From NCBI RefSeq assembly GCF_000012985.1, contig NC_007645.1, positions 4,548,581 to 4,612,580 of the forward strand: a stretch of 64,000 nucleotides of DNA. The letters run 5' to 3'. Both the position numbers and the translations under genes were made by a program. Source of the DNA: Hahella chejuensis KCTC 2396. GTDB taxonomy: Bacteria > Pseudomonadota > Gammaproteobacteria > Pseudomonadales > Oleiphilaceae. Shown piece after piece: positions 42,457 to 49,744 of this stretch (the first letter of the stretch is position 1; every line of letters starts with the position of its first letter). Below the pieces are notes generated by a model. That model was not told the DNA's origin, ran no database searches, and was given only the letters and a program-made list of their open reading frames with translations.

Positions 42457-43638
42457 TCAATCGCCCGACTTCGCCCTCCATGCGGGAGACAGCTCACGCA
42501 ACTTATTCACTGCGGTTATAATGACATCCGCTGCGACATTGACATCCTCTTCTTCAGTAAAGCGCCCCATAGAAATACGCAAGGAGCTGAGCGCCAACTC
42601 ATCCGGCACGCCAATTCCCCTTAACACATAGGAGGGCTCCAAGGATGCGGATGTGCAAGCAGAGCCAGTTGAAACAGCAAGATCTCGCATCGCCATCAGC
42701 AACGACTCGCCGTCGACATACCCGAAACTGATATTCAACGTACCCGGCAACCTATTAGCCTCTGAACCATTCAAGTAGATTTCCGGCAATACAGAGAGCG
42801 CGCGCCACAATCTATCTCGCAGCTCCGTCAATCGATCGGATTCCTCTGCCAAACCCTGACCAGCTATCTCAAAGGCGGCTCCCATCCCAACGATCTGGTG
42901 AGTTGGAAGCGTACCGGAGCGCATACCCCGCTCATGGCCGCCACCGTGAATTTGAGCGTCTACGCCAACAAACGGATTCCTTCGAACGTAAAGCGCCCCT
43001 ATGCCTTTAGGCCCATATATTTTGTGCGCACAACAAGACAACAAGTCGACTGGCATGGTCTTCATATCGACAGCCAACTTGCCCACGGACTGCGCTGCAT
43101 CCACATGAAAAAAAGCTTGATGCCCACGCAACAGCTCACCAATCGCCTGAATATCGTTAACGCTACCCAGTTCATTGTTGGCATGCATTAGAGAAACGAG
43201 AATTGTATCGTCGCGCAATGCATCTTTAACTGACTGTAAGCTGATCACCCCATCCCTGCCTGGCTTCAGATAAGTCACTTCGTAACCTTGTCTTTCCAGG
43301 TAAGCGCAGGGGTCCAGCACAGCTTTGTGCTCTATCGCGCTGGTAATAATATGGCGGCCTTTTTCAGCATAGCGACTCGCCACGCCTTTGATGGCGAGGT
43401 TATCCGCTTCTGTCGCGCCGGAAGTCCAGACTATCTCTCGAGGGTCGGCGCCAATCAGATCCGCCACTTGGCGACGCCCTTTTTCCACCATCTCTTCTGC
43501 ACGCCAGCCGTAAATATGCGAACGAGACGCCGGGTTGGCGAAGACCCCATCCAGCGTCAGGCAATGGCTCATCGCCTCAGCGACCCTCGGATCCACAGGC
43601 GTGGTGGCGGCGTAGTCGAGATATATAGGTTTCTTCAT
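42457..43638 (-). CDS. iscS: Cysteine desulfurase IscS with truncated C-terminus
   Basis: PLP enzyme that takes sulfur from cysteine for iron-sulfur clusters and tRNA thiolation. The 393-residue protein shows [32 protein letters not shown] (PLP Lys) and the catalytic Cys loop [18 protein letters not shown]. It ends [11 protein letters not shown]. The usual longer tail is missing, but IDVS can be read one frame over beyond the stop, so a late frameshift probably cut it. The usual downstream iscU, iscA, hscB, hscA and fdx are absent. Confidence 0.93.
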
Positions 43639-43712
43639 TATTTCAATTATCCCTATCCAGGTACTTCAGCGCTCCCCGCGCCTGCTTTATCAATGACACG
43701 AGCGAAATCAGG

Positions 43713-44198
43713 TTAGCCGATATCGACCAAAGAAATTCCTGCTTCGCCCGCTCGTTTTCTTTCAGTCTGCCTCTCAGCAATTTCCTGCACCGCCCGACTG
43801 GCGACCAGCTCTTCGAGACTGATACTACTGAGATAATCATGAATACGTTCGCTGAGGTCCTGCCATAAATGATGGGTCAAACAAATTTCGCCCCCCTGAC
43901 AGTCCCCTTTTCGCCCACATCTCGTTGCATCAATAGATTCGTTAACCGCCTCAATGATTTCAGCCACCGCCGTCTCACCGAGCGGGCGCGCCAACTTATA
44001 ACCACCGCCAGGCCCCCTCACACTGGACACCAGACGGCTACGCCTCAGTTTGGCGAACAATTGCTCAAGATATGAAAGCGAGATGCCCTGACGCGCCGAG
44101 ATATCCGCCAGACTGACAGGGCCGCTATTACCGTGCAGCGCCAAATCCAGCATGGCGGTCACCGCATAGCGGCCTTTGGTGGTCAAGCGCATGATCAA
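43713..44198 (-). CDS. iscR: Iron-sulfur cluster regulator IscR
   Basis: Rrf2-family repressor that senses cellular iron-sulfur status through a [2Fe-2S] cluster. The 161-residue protein has a winged helix ([38 protein letters not shown]) and the cluster ligands [19 protein letters not shown] (three Cys plus His). The start is ATG 44198 or the in-frame ATG two codons on. A palindrome sits directly upstream over the ribosome site. Confidence 0.95.
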
Positions 44199-44270: not shown

Positions 44271-45032
44271 CTACTTATCTTCGCGAACGCACTCAAAGTC
44301 CTCACTCTTCAGAGGAGGCAGCTCACCATTGCGATATTCCACATCCAACTTGTGCAGACATTTGCACATAGACTCCAGACGATCATCCACCGCCTGCATA
44401 TGATCCAGCATCGCGCGAATGGAGCGCGCCACCGGATCAGGCATCTCCTCGCTCAATCCATATGCGTCAAAGCCCATTTTCTCTTCCATGGCTTTACGGC
44501 GACCTGCTTCCGGCTCCGCTTTCTTGACAATCACCCGTCCTGGAATGCCCACCACTGTCGCATTAGCCGGCACTTCCTTGGTCACCACAGCATTGGAGCC
44601 CACTTTTGAGTTATCCCCCACCGTGAACGGCCCCAAAATTTTGGCGCCAGCGCCGACAACCACGCCATTTCCCAGCGTAGGATGACGTTTGCCTGCATTC
44701 CAACTGGTGCCGCCAAGGGTTACTCCCTGGTACAAGGTGACGTCGTCGCCAATTTCCGCCGTCTCTCCGATCACTACCCCCATACCATGATCAATGAAAA
44801 AGCGGCGACCGATTTTCGCGCCCGGATGTATTTCGATCCCTGTCATCCAGCGACTCAAAGAGGAAAGAAAGCGCGCCAGCCACTTCAATCCCTTTTTCCA
44901 CAACCAGTGACTCACGCGGTGCGCCAGCAACGCATGCAGACCGGGGTAGCAAGTCAGCACCTCAAAGGCGTTTCTGGCCGCCGGGTCCCGGTGAAAGACA
45001 CTTCTTATGTCCTCTTTTAACTGTGCTAACAT
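44271..45032 (-). CDS. cysE: Serine O-acetyltransferase CysE
   Basis: Makes O-acetylserine for cysteine synthesis. The 253-residue protein has an N-terminal helical domain ([19 protein letters not shown]) and a left-handed beta-helix of hexapeptide repeats ([55 protein letters not shown]). Supplies cysteine to IscS, which fits its place before iscR-iscS. Confidence 0.95.
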
Positions 45033-45044
45033 GATTCGCCCCGA

Positions 45045-45824
45045 TTATTTCTTTTGCCAAGTTCCCGCCATTTTCTGCGTGGACCTTAGAATGCCCCGCA
45101 GAATGTTGATTTCCATCTTATCCAAACGCGCACGCTGGTATAGCCGCCGCAACCGCGACATCAATTGTCTGGGATTTTCCGGATCATGGAATTCGATATC
45201 GACCAGCGTTTGCTCCAGATGAGCCAGATAGCGCTCAATCTCGTCCGCTGTCGCCGCCTCAACATCCCACCCCGCATCCCCGGGACCGTCCAATCTCTGG
45301 ATATATGATTGATTCTCTTCGTTTTCAAGCAGCCACCGCATGTGAAGCTCATAACAAATCACTTGCGCAGCCATCGCAACATTCAAAGATGAATAGTCTG
45401 GATTTGAAGGAATATGCACATGCAAATGACAGCGTTGCAGCTCGTCATTGGTAAGGCCCCGCTCTTCACGCCCAAATACAATCGCCACATCGCCTCTGGT
45501 CGTCGCCACGCGATCGTAAACATCATCCGCCAGGTCACGAGGATTTCTTACAGGCCAGGGGATACTTCGACCTCTTGCGCTGGTTCCCACCACCAACACG
45601 CAACCGTCTATCGCCTCTTCCAAACTCGCGACCACTTGAGCGCTCCCCAGAACATCCAAAGCTCCAGATGCGCGACTTGTTGCATCATCATCTGGAAATC
45701 GATCCGGCTCCACCAGAACCAATCGAGACAGCCGCATGTTTTTCATCACACGGGCTGTAGCGCCGATATTACCGGGATGAGAGGTGTTGACCAGCACAAT
45801 ACGGACGTTTTCCAGCATTCTCAC
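45045..45824 (-). CDS. trmJ: tRNA 2'-O-methyltransferase TrmJ
   Basis: SPOUT-family enzyme that methylates the ribose of C/U32 in tRNAs. The 259-residue protein has the knotted catalytic domain (VLVNTSHPGNIGATARVMKN, GTSARGRSIPWP, IVFGREERGLTNDEL, LNVAMAAQVICYEL) and a C-terminal extension with a predicted helix. Precedes cysE as in other gammaproteobacteria. Confidence 0.95.
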   Translation of the reverse strand: MRMLENVRIVLVNTSHPGNIGATARVMKNMRLSRLVLVEPDRFPDDDATSRASGALDVLGSAQVVASLEEAIDGCVLVVGTSARGRSIPWPVRNPRDLADDVYDRVATTRGDVAIVFGREERGLTNDELQRCHLHVHIPSNPDYSSLNVAMAAQVICYELHMRWLLENEENQSYIQRLDGPGDAGWDVEAATADEIERYLAHLEQTLVDIEFHDPENPRQLMSRLRRLYQRARLDKMEINILRGILRSTQKMAGTWQKK

Positions 45825-46036: not shown

Positions 46037-46834
46037 ATGCAGCCAATGATTAATATTGCCTTGCGCGCAATTCGCTCGTCCAATGAGCAAATCAACATGA
46101 TTCTTGAGCGTGAAGAGTTATCTTTTACCGATCCGGAAAAGCTAAAGAGAGTCATTGCACGCGTTGACGCCGCTTTCTACGACAACCTGTCCCGCGCCCT
46201 GCAACGGGCCTACCCTACCCACCAAATCAACAAAAAAGGCGATTTGAAAGGCGCACCGAAAGGCGTCAGCTGGCACATCATGCCTGTTCACAACACCGCC
46301 AGCCTCGTACGCGGCCTGTCCGACTGGTGCTTTTCACTGGTTTGCAAAAAAAACGATCAGACTGAACACGCCATCATCATCTTCCCTATAACCGGAGACG
46401 AATACACGGCAAGCCGAGGCGGCGGGGCCTCTTTGAACGGTAAACGCATTCGCGTTTCCGGCACTAAAGAGCTGGAGTTATCCATGCTATCCACCAATAT
46501 TCTGGAAGGCGTTGGCAAAAGAGAAGAGCCTGCAACACTGTTAGAGGCTTATGCAGAGCTGGACAAGAGCTGTTTCGGCGTCAGAAGCGCACATTGTATT
46601 CCGCAAGAGTTGGCCTACCTGGCCGCAGGAAAAATCGACGTCGCCATATTGAACAACATCAGCCCACTTGAAACGGCAGCTGGACTGCTTATCGCCAAGG
46701 AAGCCGGAGCCCTGCATAGCGATGTCCGCGGAAATCCTTTAAATGAGAGAAGCCGTTCCCTTATTTGCTGCAATCCAAAAATGCTCAAGCCCGTTTCTCA
46801 AAAGGCCCACAAACTGGCTGAGTTGCTGAAGTAG
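46037..46834 (+). CDS. suhB: SuhB/inositol-monophosphatase homologue with lost active site
   Basis: Positioned and built like SuhB (265 residues, start MQPMINIALRAIRS, EYTASRGGGASLNGKRIRVS, LAYLAAGKIDV, TAAGLLIAKEAGA). All metal motifs of the phosphatase are lost. The GEE site reads NKKG (about 65-68), DPLDGTTN reads MPVHNTAS (82-89) and the late WDxAAG reads LETAAG (211-216). It therefore probably cannot hydrolyse inositol phosphate. In E. coli SuhB also acts, without catalysis, in rRNA antitermination with Nus factors; that role could explain retention. ATG 46037 has a poor ribosome site. Confidence 0.85.
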   Translation: MQPMINIALRAIRSSNEQINMILEREELSFTDPEKLKRVIARVDAAFYDNLSRALQRAYPTHQINKKGDLKGAPKGVSWHIMPVHNTASLVRGLSDWCFSLVCKKNDQTEHAIIIFPITGDEYTASRGGGASLNGKRIRVSGTKELELSMLSTNILEGVGKREEPATLLEAYAELDKSCFGVRSAHCIPQELAYLAAGKIDVAILNNISPLETAAGLLIAKEAGALHSDVRGNPLNERSRSLICCNPKMLKPVSQKAHKLAELLK

Positions 46835-46945: not shown

Positions 46946-47869
46946 TTAGGGACGCTCATCCAGCTCCGCGCCCTCTCCCTCTTTTACAGGGATCATCAAA
47001 TCTTCTTTGCTGATATTCATGATCAACAGCAGGTTACTCGCAACATATATAGACGAGTATGTCCCAACAATAATGCCGATGATCAGCGCAGTAGAAAACC
47101 CTTTAAGCGCCGGCCCGCCAAACAGAAATAGCGCCACCAGCACCAACAAAGTGGTTAAGCCGGTAACAATGGTGCGGGACAAGGTTTGCGTTAAAGATAT
47201 ATTGATAATTTCAATTGGGGTTTCTTCACGCAGGCGGCGAAAGTTTTCACGCACGCGGTCACTTACAACAATGGTATCGTTCAATGAGTAACCAATCACC
47301 GCCAACACCGCCGCCAGCACATTCAGATCGAAGTCCCACTGAAACAGCGAGAACATCCCCACTGTGATGATGACATCGTGCACCAAGGCCATCACCGCGC
47401 CAACAGAAAACTTAAACTGAAAGCGGAAGGCGATATAGAGCATGATCACACCCAGCGCCAACAGCAATCCCAAGCCGCCCTGCTCTCGCAACTCTTCACC
47501 AACCTGTGAACCAACGAACTCAGAACGGCTCAAAGTCACCTGCTCCCCATTCGCCGACAAAGCGCCCACTACCTCAGTACCGATGGATTCGCTGTGCTCC
47601 TGCTGCAAACGCACCAGAATACTGGTGTCAGAACCAAACTTCTGTACGACGAAGTTTTCGTACTTGTGAGCCTCAAGCTGATGCCGCACATCATTGATTT
47701 GCGGCGCTTTGGCGTACTCCACCTCCACCAGCGTGCCGCCAGTGAAATCCAACCCGAAGGACAAGCCGCGAGTGGCGATGGACACGATGGATATAATGAT
47801 CATTATCACAGACAAAGCCAGCGCAGGCTTCGCTATGCCCATAAAGTTATAAACTTTTTCATCAGACAT
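46946..47869 (-). CDS. secF: Protein translocase subunit SecF
   Basis: With SecD uses the proton gradient to pull proteins through SecYEG. The 307-residue protein has six transmembrane helices and the SecF signature GLSFGLDFTGGTLVEVEYA, with VIGYSLNDTIVVSDRVRENF in the helical bundle. It starts 12 bases after secD, in the conserved order yajC-secD-secF. Confidence 0.96.
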   Translation of the reverse strand: MSDEKVYNFMGIAKPALALSVIMIIISIVSIATRGLSFGLDFTGGTLVEVEYAKAPQINDVRHQLEAHKYENFVVQKFGSDTSILVRLQQEHSESIGTEVVGALSANGEQVTLSRSEFVGSQVGEELREQGGLGLLLALGVIMLYIAFRFQFKFSVGAVMALVHDVIITVGMFSLFQWDFDLNVLAAVLAVIGYSLNDTIVVSDRVRENFRRLREETPIEIINISLTQTLSRTIVTGLTTLLVLVALFLFGGPALKGFSTALIIGIIVGTYSSIYVASNLLLIMNISKEDLMIPVKEGEGAELDERP

Positions 47870-47881
47870 AGTTATGCCTCC

Positions 47882-49744
47882 TTAACCTTGCTTGACGCCG
47901 CCAATGGACAAACTCCCGACATTGCGACCGCCGTATATCATATTGACTACCGCGCGAGTCACGGTAATGGCGGTAAACATGGAGGTCAGAATACCGATAG
48001 ACAGCGTCACTGCGAAACCTTTAACCGGGCCAGTGCCGATCGCGAACAGGATCAACGCCGCAATCAATGTCGTCACGTTGGCGTCAAAAATAGACACGAA
48101 TGCGCGATCGTAACCTGCATGAATCGCCGACTGAGGCGGCAGACCATTACGCAATTCCTCACGAATCCGCTCGTAGATCAACACGTTGGCGTCAACCGCC
48201 ATCCCCACCGTCAATACAATACCGGCGATACCCGGCAGAGTCAGCGTGGCCGACATTAAGGACATAACTGCTATTAGAATAAAGACGTTAGCCGCCAAAG
48301 CAATGTTGGCGACAATTCCGAACACGCGGTAGTACACGATCATAAACAGCATGACCAGCACAAAACCAATAGCGACGGAAGTGGCGCCGTCTTTGATATT
48401 CTCAAGCCCCAGACTAGGCCCGACGGTACGCTCCTCGACAAAATAGATGGGCGCCGCCAATGCGCCGGAACGCAACAATAAAGCCAATTCCTTGGCTTCG
48501 AACACCGAGTCAAGCCCCGTTATACGGAAACTGTTTCCTAACGGCGACTGGATAGTGGCGAGACTGATGATTTTCTTTTCTACATAACGGCGCTTCTTGG
48601 GCTGACCGTTCGTAGACTTGGCGTCTACTTCTTCTTTGTACTCAACAAAGAGTACGCCCATGTTGCGCTGCACAGCATCCTTGGTGACATGGAACATTTT
48701 GTTGCCGCCCAGGGAGTCCAGCTTGATGTTTACTTCAGGGCGACCATTCTCATCAAAGGATTGCTGCGCATTGGCGACGCTGCCGCCAGTAATAATAATG
48801 TCGCGCTCCAGACTTGCCGTACGGGGCTCGGAACGGAATTCAAACTTTTCAATCGATCCTGCCGAAGCGTCTGGTCGCGCCTCAAGACGGAACTCCAGGT
48901 TAGCGGTAGACCCCAGAATACGCTTGGCTTCGGCCGTGTCTTGCACGCCTGGCAACTCCACAACGATACGTCCCCGCCCTTGACGCTGAACCAAAGGTTC
49001 GGCGACGCCCAGTTCGTTGACCCGGTTACGCAGGGTGCTCAAATTCTGGGAAATGGCGTAGTCTTCGATTTCTTTCGCCCGACTTTCCAGCAGGGTCAGC
49101 TTCACCATAAACAAGCCGCTCTCTTCAGCGCTTTCCGCCAAAAAGTCGTCAAACTCACGGCGCGCCAGAGACAAGGCGCTATCACGGTCATCTTCGTCCC
49201 GGAAGCCTACGGAAATCTGCCTGGGAGTCAGAATATCCACCGACTTATAACGCAACCCTTCTTCTCTCAACTTGGTCTTAATATCGCCTTGGGTAATTTC
49301 CATTGTCGTGGCGACCGCTTTCGCCAAATCCACCTCCATAAGGAAGTGAACCCCTCCACGCAGGTCCAACCCCAGCTTCATCGGGGCGGCGCCCAAATTG
49401 GATAACCATGCGGGCGTTGTCGGAGCCAGGTTCAACGCCACAACATAGTCATTGCCGAGAGCGCTCTTGACGTGAGGCTGAGCGTCCAACTGAGTGTCGT
49501 TGTCCGCAAAGCGGATGATGATGTTCTTCTCGCCGACTTTCGCTTCGCCGTATGCAATGCCCGCTTCATCCAGGGCGTCTTTGGCTTTTTTCAACACGCT
49601 CTCGTCAACCTCAATGGAGCCGCGAGATCCGCTTATCTGCAAAGCGTAGTCATCAGGATATAAATTCGGTAAGGCGTAAATAAAGCCCATCATCAGCACT
49701 ATGACAACGAGCAGATTTTTCCAAAGTGGGTATTTGTTGAGCAT
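47882..49744 (-). CDS. secD: Protein translocase subunit SecD
   Basis: RND-type partner of SecF, 620 residues. One N-terminal transmembrane helix (NLLVVIVLMMGFIYALPNLY) is followed by a large periplasmic domain with LGLDLRGGVHFLMEVD, VQRQGRGRIVVELPGVQDT and the head domain. Five more helices follow (GIVLTVGMAVDANVLIYERI is the essential Asp region). Sits between yajC and secF. Confidence 0.96.
   Translation of the reverse strand: MLNKYPLWKNLLVVIVLMMGFIYALPNLYPDDYALQISGSRGSIEVDESVLKKAKDALDEAGIAYGEAKVGEKNIIIRFADNDTQLDAQPHVKSALGNDYVVALNLAPTTPAWLSNLGAAPMKLGLDLRGGVHFLMEVDLAKAVATTMEITQGDIKTKLREEGLRYKSVDILTPRQISVGFRDEDDRDSALSLARREFDDFLAESAEESGLFMVKLTLLESRAKEIEDYAISQNLSTLRNRVNELGVAEPLVQRQGRGRIVVELPGVQDTAEAKRILGSTANLEFRLEARPDASAGSIEKFEFRSEPRTASLERDIIITGGSVANAQQSFDENGRPEVNIKLDSLGGNKMFHVTKDAVQRNMGVLFVEYKEEVDAKSTNGQPKKRRYVEKKIISLATIQSPLGNSFRITGLDSVFEAKELALLLRSGALAAPIYFVEERTVGPSLGLENIKDGATSVAIGFVLVMLFMIVYYRVFGIVANIALAANVFILIAVMSLMSATLTLPGIAGIVLTVGMAVDANVLIYERIREELRNGLPPQSAIHAGYDRAFVSIFDANVTTLIAALILFAIGTGPVKGFAVTLSIGILTSMFTAITVTRAVVNMIYGGRNVGSLSIGGVKQG

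Follow-up and report, generated by a model that had tools for sequence, protein, structure and literature searches.

SuhB of Hahella chejuensis and many related bacteria has lost its catalytic site and is probably kept as a Nus factor

SuhB of E. coli, like that of P. aeruginosa, is both a Nus factor and an inositol-1-monophosphatase. Two papers on the E. coli protein place it in the rRNA antitermination complex and report that its inositol monophosphatase (IMPase) activity is unnecessary to relieve the effects of suhB mutation (PMC6614801, PMC4807359). The original prediction for the gene studied here held that E. coli SuhB supports its rRNA role without catalysis. According to the former paper, binding to the second acidic repeat (AR2) of NusA needs K251 and L254, and the double change KL251/254AA lowers the affinity for AR2 more than thousandfold (PMC6614801). 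Whether this role depends on the enzyme activity is a question addressed chiefly in E. coli. Pseudoenzymes, the catalytically dead members of enzyme families, are kept for binding; in the literature that we searched, with subscription papers largely outside its coverage and others accessible in part, we found no report of a natural SuhB lacking the catalytic site and none linking SuhB with the term pseudoenzyme.

The DNA analyzed here, referred to as the window, is a stretch of 64,000 nucleotides from a single 7,215,267-base contig of Hahella chejuensis KCTC 2396. On its forward strand (46037..46834) lies an open reading frame of 265 amino acids that matches the IMPase family PF00459 (E 7.6e-24) and whose best PDB match is the P. 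aeruginosa ‘Nus factor SuhB’ (E 3.1e-41). The protein shares 27.4% of its residues with E. coli SuhB and 35.2% with the SuhB of G197 (family f20), which we take to be a Pseudomonas genome. The gene is divergent to trmJ (45045..45824, reverse strand), the marker of the suhB locus, which adjoins suhB in E. coli as well. Beyond trmJ, also on the reverse strand, are a gene (44271..45032) present in many loci of the order, presumably cysE-like to judge from its sequence, and iscS and iscR (42457..44198), both annotated beside E. coli suhB. The other side of suhB is occupied by what we take to be secF and secD (46946..49744, reverse strand), named, like some other neighbors, from their sequences.

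Throughout, residues are numbered as in E. coli SuhB, and a SuhB is called dead if its metal quartet (E67, D84, D87, and D212) is broken and active if the quartet is intact. In a hand-chosen sample of 80 genomes of the order, trmJ and suhB diverge at all 43 dead loci and at 30 of the 37 active ones, and for six of the seven active loci not scored in this way the stretch read contained no trmJ. A search of public loci gave trmJ together with secF in all 80 Hahella/Marinobacter-type loci examined (the best 80 of 256 confirmed), the nearest named loci to the window gene among them being those of Hahella species. The window gene is a suhB orthologue by position. Its product scores 106.9 bits against the NCBIfam equivalog PRK10757, for which the cut-off is 332; by the NCBIfam rule it is not an equivalog, and we class it as a diverged orthologue.

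Alignment with E. coli SuhB reveals that all four metal ligands required of an IMPase are changed, the quartet reading K/M/H/E. The frame, strand, and altered strings are as the original prediction described them, and its claim that every metal motif is lost agrees with this alignment: NKKG (46229..46240) replaces the GEE metal motif (E67K, with E68 deleted), MPVHNTAS (46280..46303) replaces DPLDGTTN (D84M, D87H, G88N), and LETAAG (46667..46684) replaces WDxAAG (W211L, D212E). The residues K34, D38, R184, and E205 are changed as well. Loss of the catalytic site extends to the relatives: E67, D84, and D87 are missing from seven of seven genomes of the genus and from all 80 public loci (the best 80 of 256), most of them from these two genera, Hahella and Marinobacter, yet the whole quartet is present in E. 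coli SuhB and in 37 of the 80 order genomes, which excludes chance or alignment error. As a control, A. baumannii SuhB carries GEE, DPLDGT, and WD. We infer from the missing active-site residues that the window protein has lost its phosphatase activity.

The catalytic site was broken in different ways in different lineages. Among the 43 dead proteins of the order sample none of the quartet remains in nine, one residue in 27, and two in seven, and R184, a residue studied in E. coli, is absent from every dead SuhB. Weak or altered phosphatase activity through another metal arrangement might be argued from the seven proteins that keep two quartet residues and from D44 and T89, the pocket residues examined that are kept in the window protein (the pocket being assigned partly by analogy with human IMPA1). 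However, T89 is kept in only one of the 43, the window protein itself, which has none of the four metal ligands and lacks E68, and we regard such residual activity as very improbable. Position 67 is Arg or Lys in 22 of the 43 dead proteins, spread over seven families (Lys in the window), and a further sample adds Arg for its members of f26 and f44; in most Marinobacter-type loci it is Leu, Met, or Ala, with Arg or Lys in four of 80 (the best 80 of 256). Arg or Lys at this position is possibly a replacement, in some lineages, for the charge of the lost metal.

The gene is nevertheless kept by purifying selection and is not decaying, as the original prediction had proposed. The dN/dS between the window suhB and that of Hahella sp. 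HN01 is 0.019, and across relatives, a comparison that the prediction had suggested, nine of ten computable pairs of dead genes give 0.015 to 0.072, values like those of trmJ and secF and of three active pairs. The AlphaFold model of the window protein has an intact PF00459 fold (pLDDT 91.7), and the solved chains closest to it are, in order, P. aeruginosa SuhB, 6ib8 (SuhB with NusA AR2), E. coli SuhB, and 6tqn (the rrn antitermination complex). A decaying gene, a sequencing error, or a misassembly could account for lost motifs, and suhB matches in two adjoining pieces, reflecting either a broken gene or a sequence error, do exist in two genomes of other orders (G439:C6:105760-106540 and G527:C18:19652-20375). 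Such an explanation is barely credible for the window gene and was rejected, being contradicted by the low dN/dS and by frames that are open in seven of seven members of the genus and, at 257 to 268 amino acids, in 80 of 80 public loci (the best 80 of 256). We consider it likely that the product of the window suhB has ceased to act as a phosphatase and persists in the role of a structural Nus factor.

The original prediction treated the SuhB homologue as a single pseudo-phosphatase. The lost motifs support that description, and the single-gene view gives way to a branch of the order plus further, separate losses. The quartet is broken in 43 and intact in 37 of the 80 order genomes, a set that covers 40 of 47 family codes and oversamples dead families; counts over related genomes are not independent, and the public loci, retrieved with a query built from dead sequences, describe the Hahella/Marinobacter clade and give no frequency. 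In f1, f6, f7, f36, f37, and f38 all positional suhB genes read are dead. Beyond the 80-genome set, f25, f28, f31, and f43 have intact quartets, f12 yielded a fragment that retains the first three ligands, f3 gave no suhB match, and f45 was unread. Thirty further rows comprised one repeat (G344), four other IMPases left unscored (three from f15, one from f6), and 25 SuhB proteins, 15 dead and ten active; f26 is dead in four of four. As read from these alignments, dead SuhB characterizes an entire branch of the order and is not one odd gene. A match to E. coli SuhB was obtained in 185 of the 187 genomes searched in the class, three of which belong to the order. Motifs were read solely for the 15 weakest matches outside the window's genome, at least seven of which had neither trmJ nor secF in the stretch, and these 15 include three dead genes adjoining trmJ or secF (G506, G413, and G399).

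Several families hold both states. Family f44 has one active genus (g115, three of three) and two dead genera (g47, four of four; g66, five of five), f39 has the dead genus g81 (four of four) among five active genera, and f15 has one dead and one active genome, the active one being 82% complete. In f8, a single genus, g132, contains an active SuhB (G362, L352) and a dead one (G344, L129/L179), whose gene runs off its contig. The g132 pair has the look of a young loss of the site.

A FastTree tree of the neighboring genes, built after removal of the four of 81 rows with fewer than 200 filled columns, places the dead proteins in eight clades, or in five once forks below 0.95 are collapsed. A quick IQ-TREE tree of 68 rows, from which nine more rows with fewer than 600 filled columns had been dropped, requires five changes of state. 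In an AU test on the same rows, a single clade of all 35 dead rows was not rejected (p 0.18), and without f39 g81 the tree holding the dead rows together was 24 log units better; f8 G344, f44 g47 and g66, f26, and f15 are absent from the IQ-TREE and AU rows. One loss for the group of f1, f6, f7, f36, f37, and f38 is likewise not rejected. Given the AU result and the better constrained tree, we make no claim of separate losses inside this main group and have set that possibility aside. Repeated loss is claimed because families, and one genus, contain both active and dead SuhB; provided that each family is a natural group and that a lost site is never regained, there would have been at least five losses in the order.

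Comparison with other PF00459 proteins suggests what has been kept. The window's genome encodes three of these elsewhere (L001, L002, and the CysQ-like L003), all with intact quartets, so that the search for an intact IMPase suggested in the original prediction had a positive outcome. They belong to the same family as the window protein, but they lie at other loci, and paralogues as a group lack the columns typical of SuhB, for which reason we rejected the idea of an active SuhB hidden elsewhere in the genome. Ten catalytic columns are kept in 0 to 49% of dead SuhB proteins versus 69 to 100% of 45 paralogues. Conversely, dead SuhB retains M1, P3, R10, R13, H113, E124, R139, R141, K/R248, and K/R251, residues that few paralogues have (the C-termini of paralogues are less certainly aligned); H113 and E124 are missing from E. 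coli SuhB itself. The four N-terminal residues M1, P3, R10, and R13 (46037..46075 in the window) are kept in dead and active SuhB alike. Arg at 139 and 141 (the R-x-R at 46445..46453) is found in a fraction of 1.00 of the dead SuhB proteins aligned there, versus 0.24 and 0.16 in paralogues.

Residue 251, the contact residue for NusA AR2 in E. coli, is Lys in the window protein, within a conserved C-terminal NPKMLK (46772..46789). It is Lys or Arg in 42 of 42 dead SuhB proteins that reach the column, in 36 of 38 active ones, and in all 80 Hahella/Marinobacter-type loci (the best 80 of 256), versus two of 31 paralogues from dead-SuhB genomes. A basic 251 is also present in 13 of 15 further dead SuhB proteins of the order, both exceptions belonging to f39 g81, and in two of the three dead genes outside the order. 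Residue 254, one of the two changed in the AR2-binding mutant, is Ser in the window protein and Leu in E. coli. The window SuhB resembles its E. coli and P. aeruginosa counterparts in fold, length, N- and C-terminal signature columns, and the basic 251, and differs from them in its metal ligands, in the loss of E68 and R184, and in S254. To judge from these columns, catalysis and the remaining SuhB features dissociate in both directions, as seen in dead SuhB versus active paralogues. Separately, two proteins, L206 (G038) and L209 (G028), have the opposite combination of an intact quartet with a non-basic residue at 251 (Gly and Leu, respectively).

A remodeled pocket with a different activity or another ligand, the rRNA role being incidental or lost, would fit the wide variation of pocket residues among lineages of dead SuhB. 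It would also fit their lower mean identity to E. coli SuhB (31.9% versus 51.0% for active proteins), a distance which suggests that the kept function may have shifted. Against this stand the different ways in which the site was broken and the lack, among the columns shared by the 43 dead proteins, of any new conserved pocket set; the columns common to them are nearly all those of active SuhB. We therefore regard a new activity as unlikely.

Dead-SuhB genomes are richer in PF00459 proteins, with a mean of 2.81 per genome (43 genomes) versus 1.86 in active-SuhB genomes (37; Mann-Whitney p 7e-6, uncorrected for kinship), and 29 of 31 paralogues checked in dead-SuhB genomes have an intact quartet. 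These data could be read as favoring a regulatory role for dead SuhB, in which it would pair with an active IMPase paralogue of its own cell to form a mixed dimer. However, in five of the 43 genomes the dead SuhB is the sole PF00459 match, namely in four genomes that are 99 to 100% complete (G388, G225, G338, and G055) and in G344, where the gene is cut by the contig end, so a paralogue partner cannot be general. The paralogues also lack the SuhB columns, and a mixed dimer seems to us quite improbable. Taken together, the higher count and the five exceptions suggest that the enzyme activity may have passed to a paralogue in many lineages, though not in all. Two non-SuhB IMPase paralogues have themselves lost quartet residues (L215 in G054, DDEG; L217 in G110, EADD), and in a genome of the window's genus another PF00459 match contains an in-frame TGA (G005:C44:22887-23516).

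Returning to retention as a Nus factor, we envisage a dead protein that retains the fold of SuhB and probably still dimerizes, and that would bind NusA AR2 by means of a C-terminal helix carrying the basic residue 251. It would associate with RNA polymerase at boxA/boxC in the rRNA leader and spacer and help NusB/NusE-S10 and other factors to remain bound, supporting Rho-resistant, folding-competent rRNA synthesis with neither metal nor substrate required. Arg or Lys at 67 may hold the emptied pocket together by standing in for the charge of the lost metal. The proposed binding to NusA and RNA polymerase and the rRNA role itself are read across from E. coli. The prediction that the rRNA role and the enzyme activity may have been separated here by nature is supported by positional orthology, purifying selection, the IMPases elsewhere, and the 251 column, with the antitermination role still inferred. 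As in pseudoenzymes generally, catalytic residues are lost and the rest is under purifying selection; unlike in those, the non-catalytic role is already known from an active relative, and the enzyme half alone would have been lost.

What these sequences most likely reflect is a SuhB of which the Nus-factor half alone remains, a form that is common in one gammaproteobacterial branch and has been reached several times. It appears fairly likely that, across the branch and in several separate lineages, SuhB became a purely structural rRNA transcription factor, that the Nus role and not the enzyme keeps suhB (some such cells have no other protein of the inositol-phosphatase family), that the change of Glu67 to Arg or Lys is a convergent closing of the metal site, and that the columns common to dead and active SuhB but not to paralogues mark the antitermination surface. 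These proteins would constitute a natural experiment, performed more than once, in which the gene has lost the site but not the strong selection that acts on it, and the comparison yields a short list of non-catalytic residues as a candidate transcription interface. The label ‘inositol monophosphatase’ on these suhB genes is probably wrong.

The expected partners are permissive for this role. NusA with two C-terminal repeats was found in 34 of 35 genomes (22 of 23 with dead and 12 of 12 with active SuhB) and in 25 of 28 genomes of a second set, four of which are common to the first. The 16S-23S spacer of the window's genome contains a boxA-like AGCTCTTTAACAATTT with one mismatch; with 0.39 boxA-like matches (up to two mismatches) expected by chance, the count alone is not beyond chance, and no such site was found at the second, partial 16S match of that genome. 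In the rRNA operon leader of this genome (L233:1330-1390), a boxA-like stretch and, after it, a boxC-like TTGTTGTGGGCGC were read by eye. The SuhB proteins of f39 g81 (L181, L362, L368, and L372) are among the most diverged of all. Two of these four genomes are among the exceptions to the two-repeat pattern, a single C-terminal repeat being detectable in their NusA; the others have a weak second repeat, and residue 251 is Ser or Gln in two of the four, not the same two, possibly reflecting decay of the SuhB-NusA contact in this genus.
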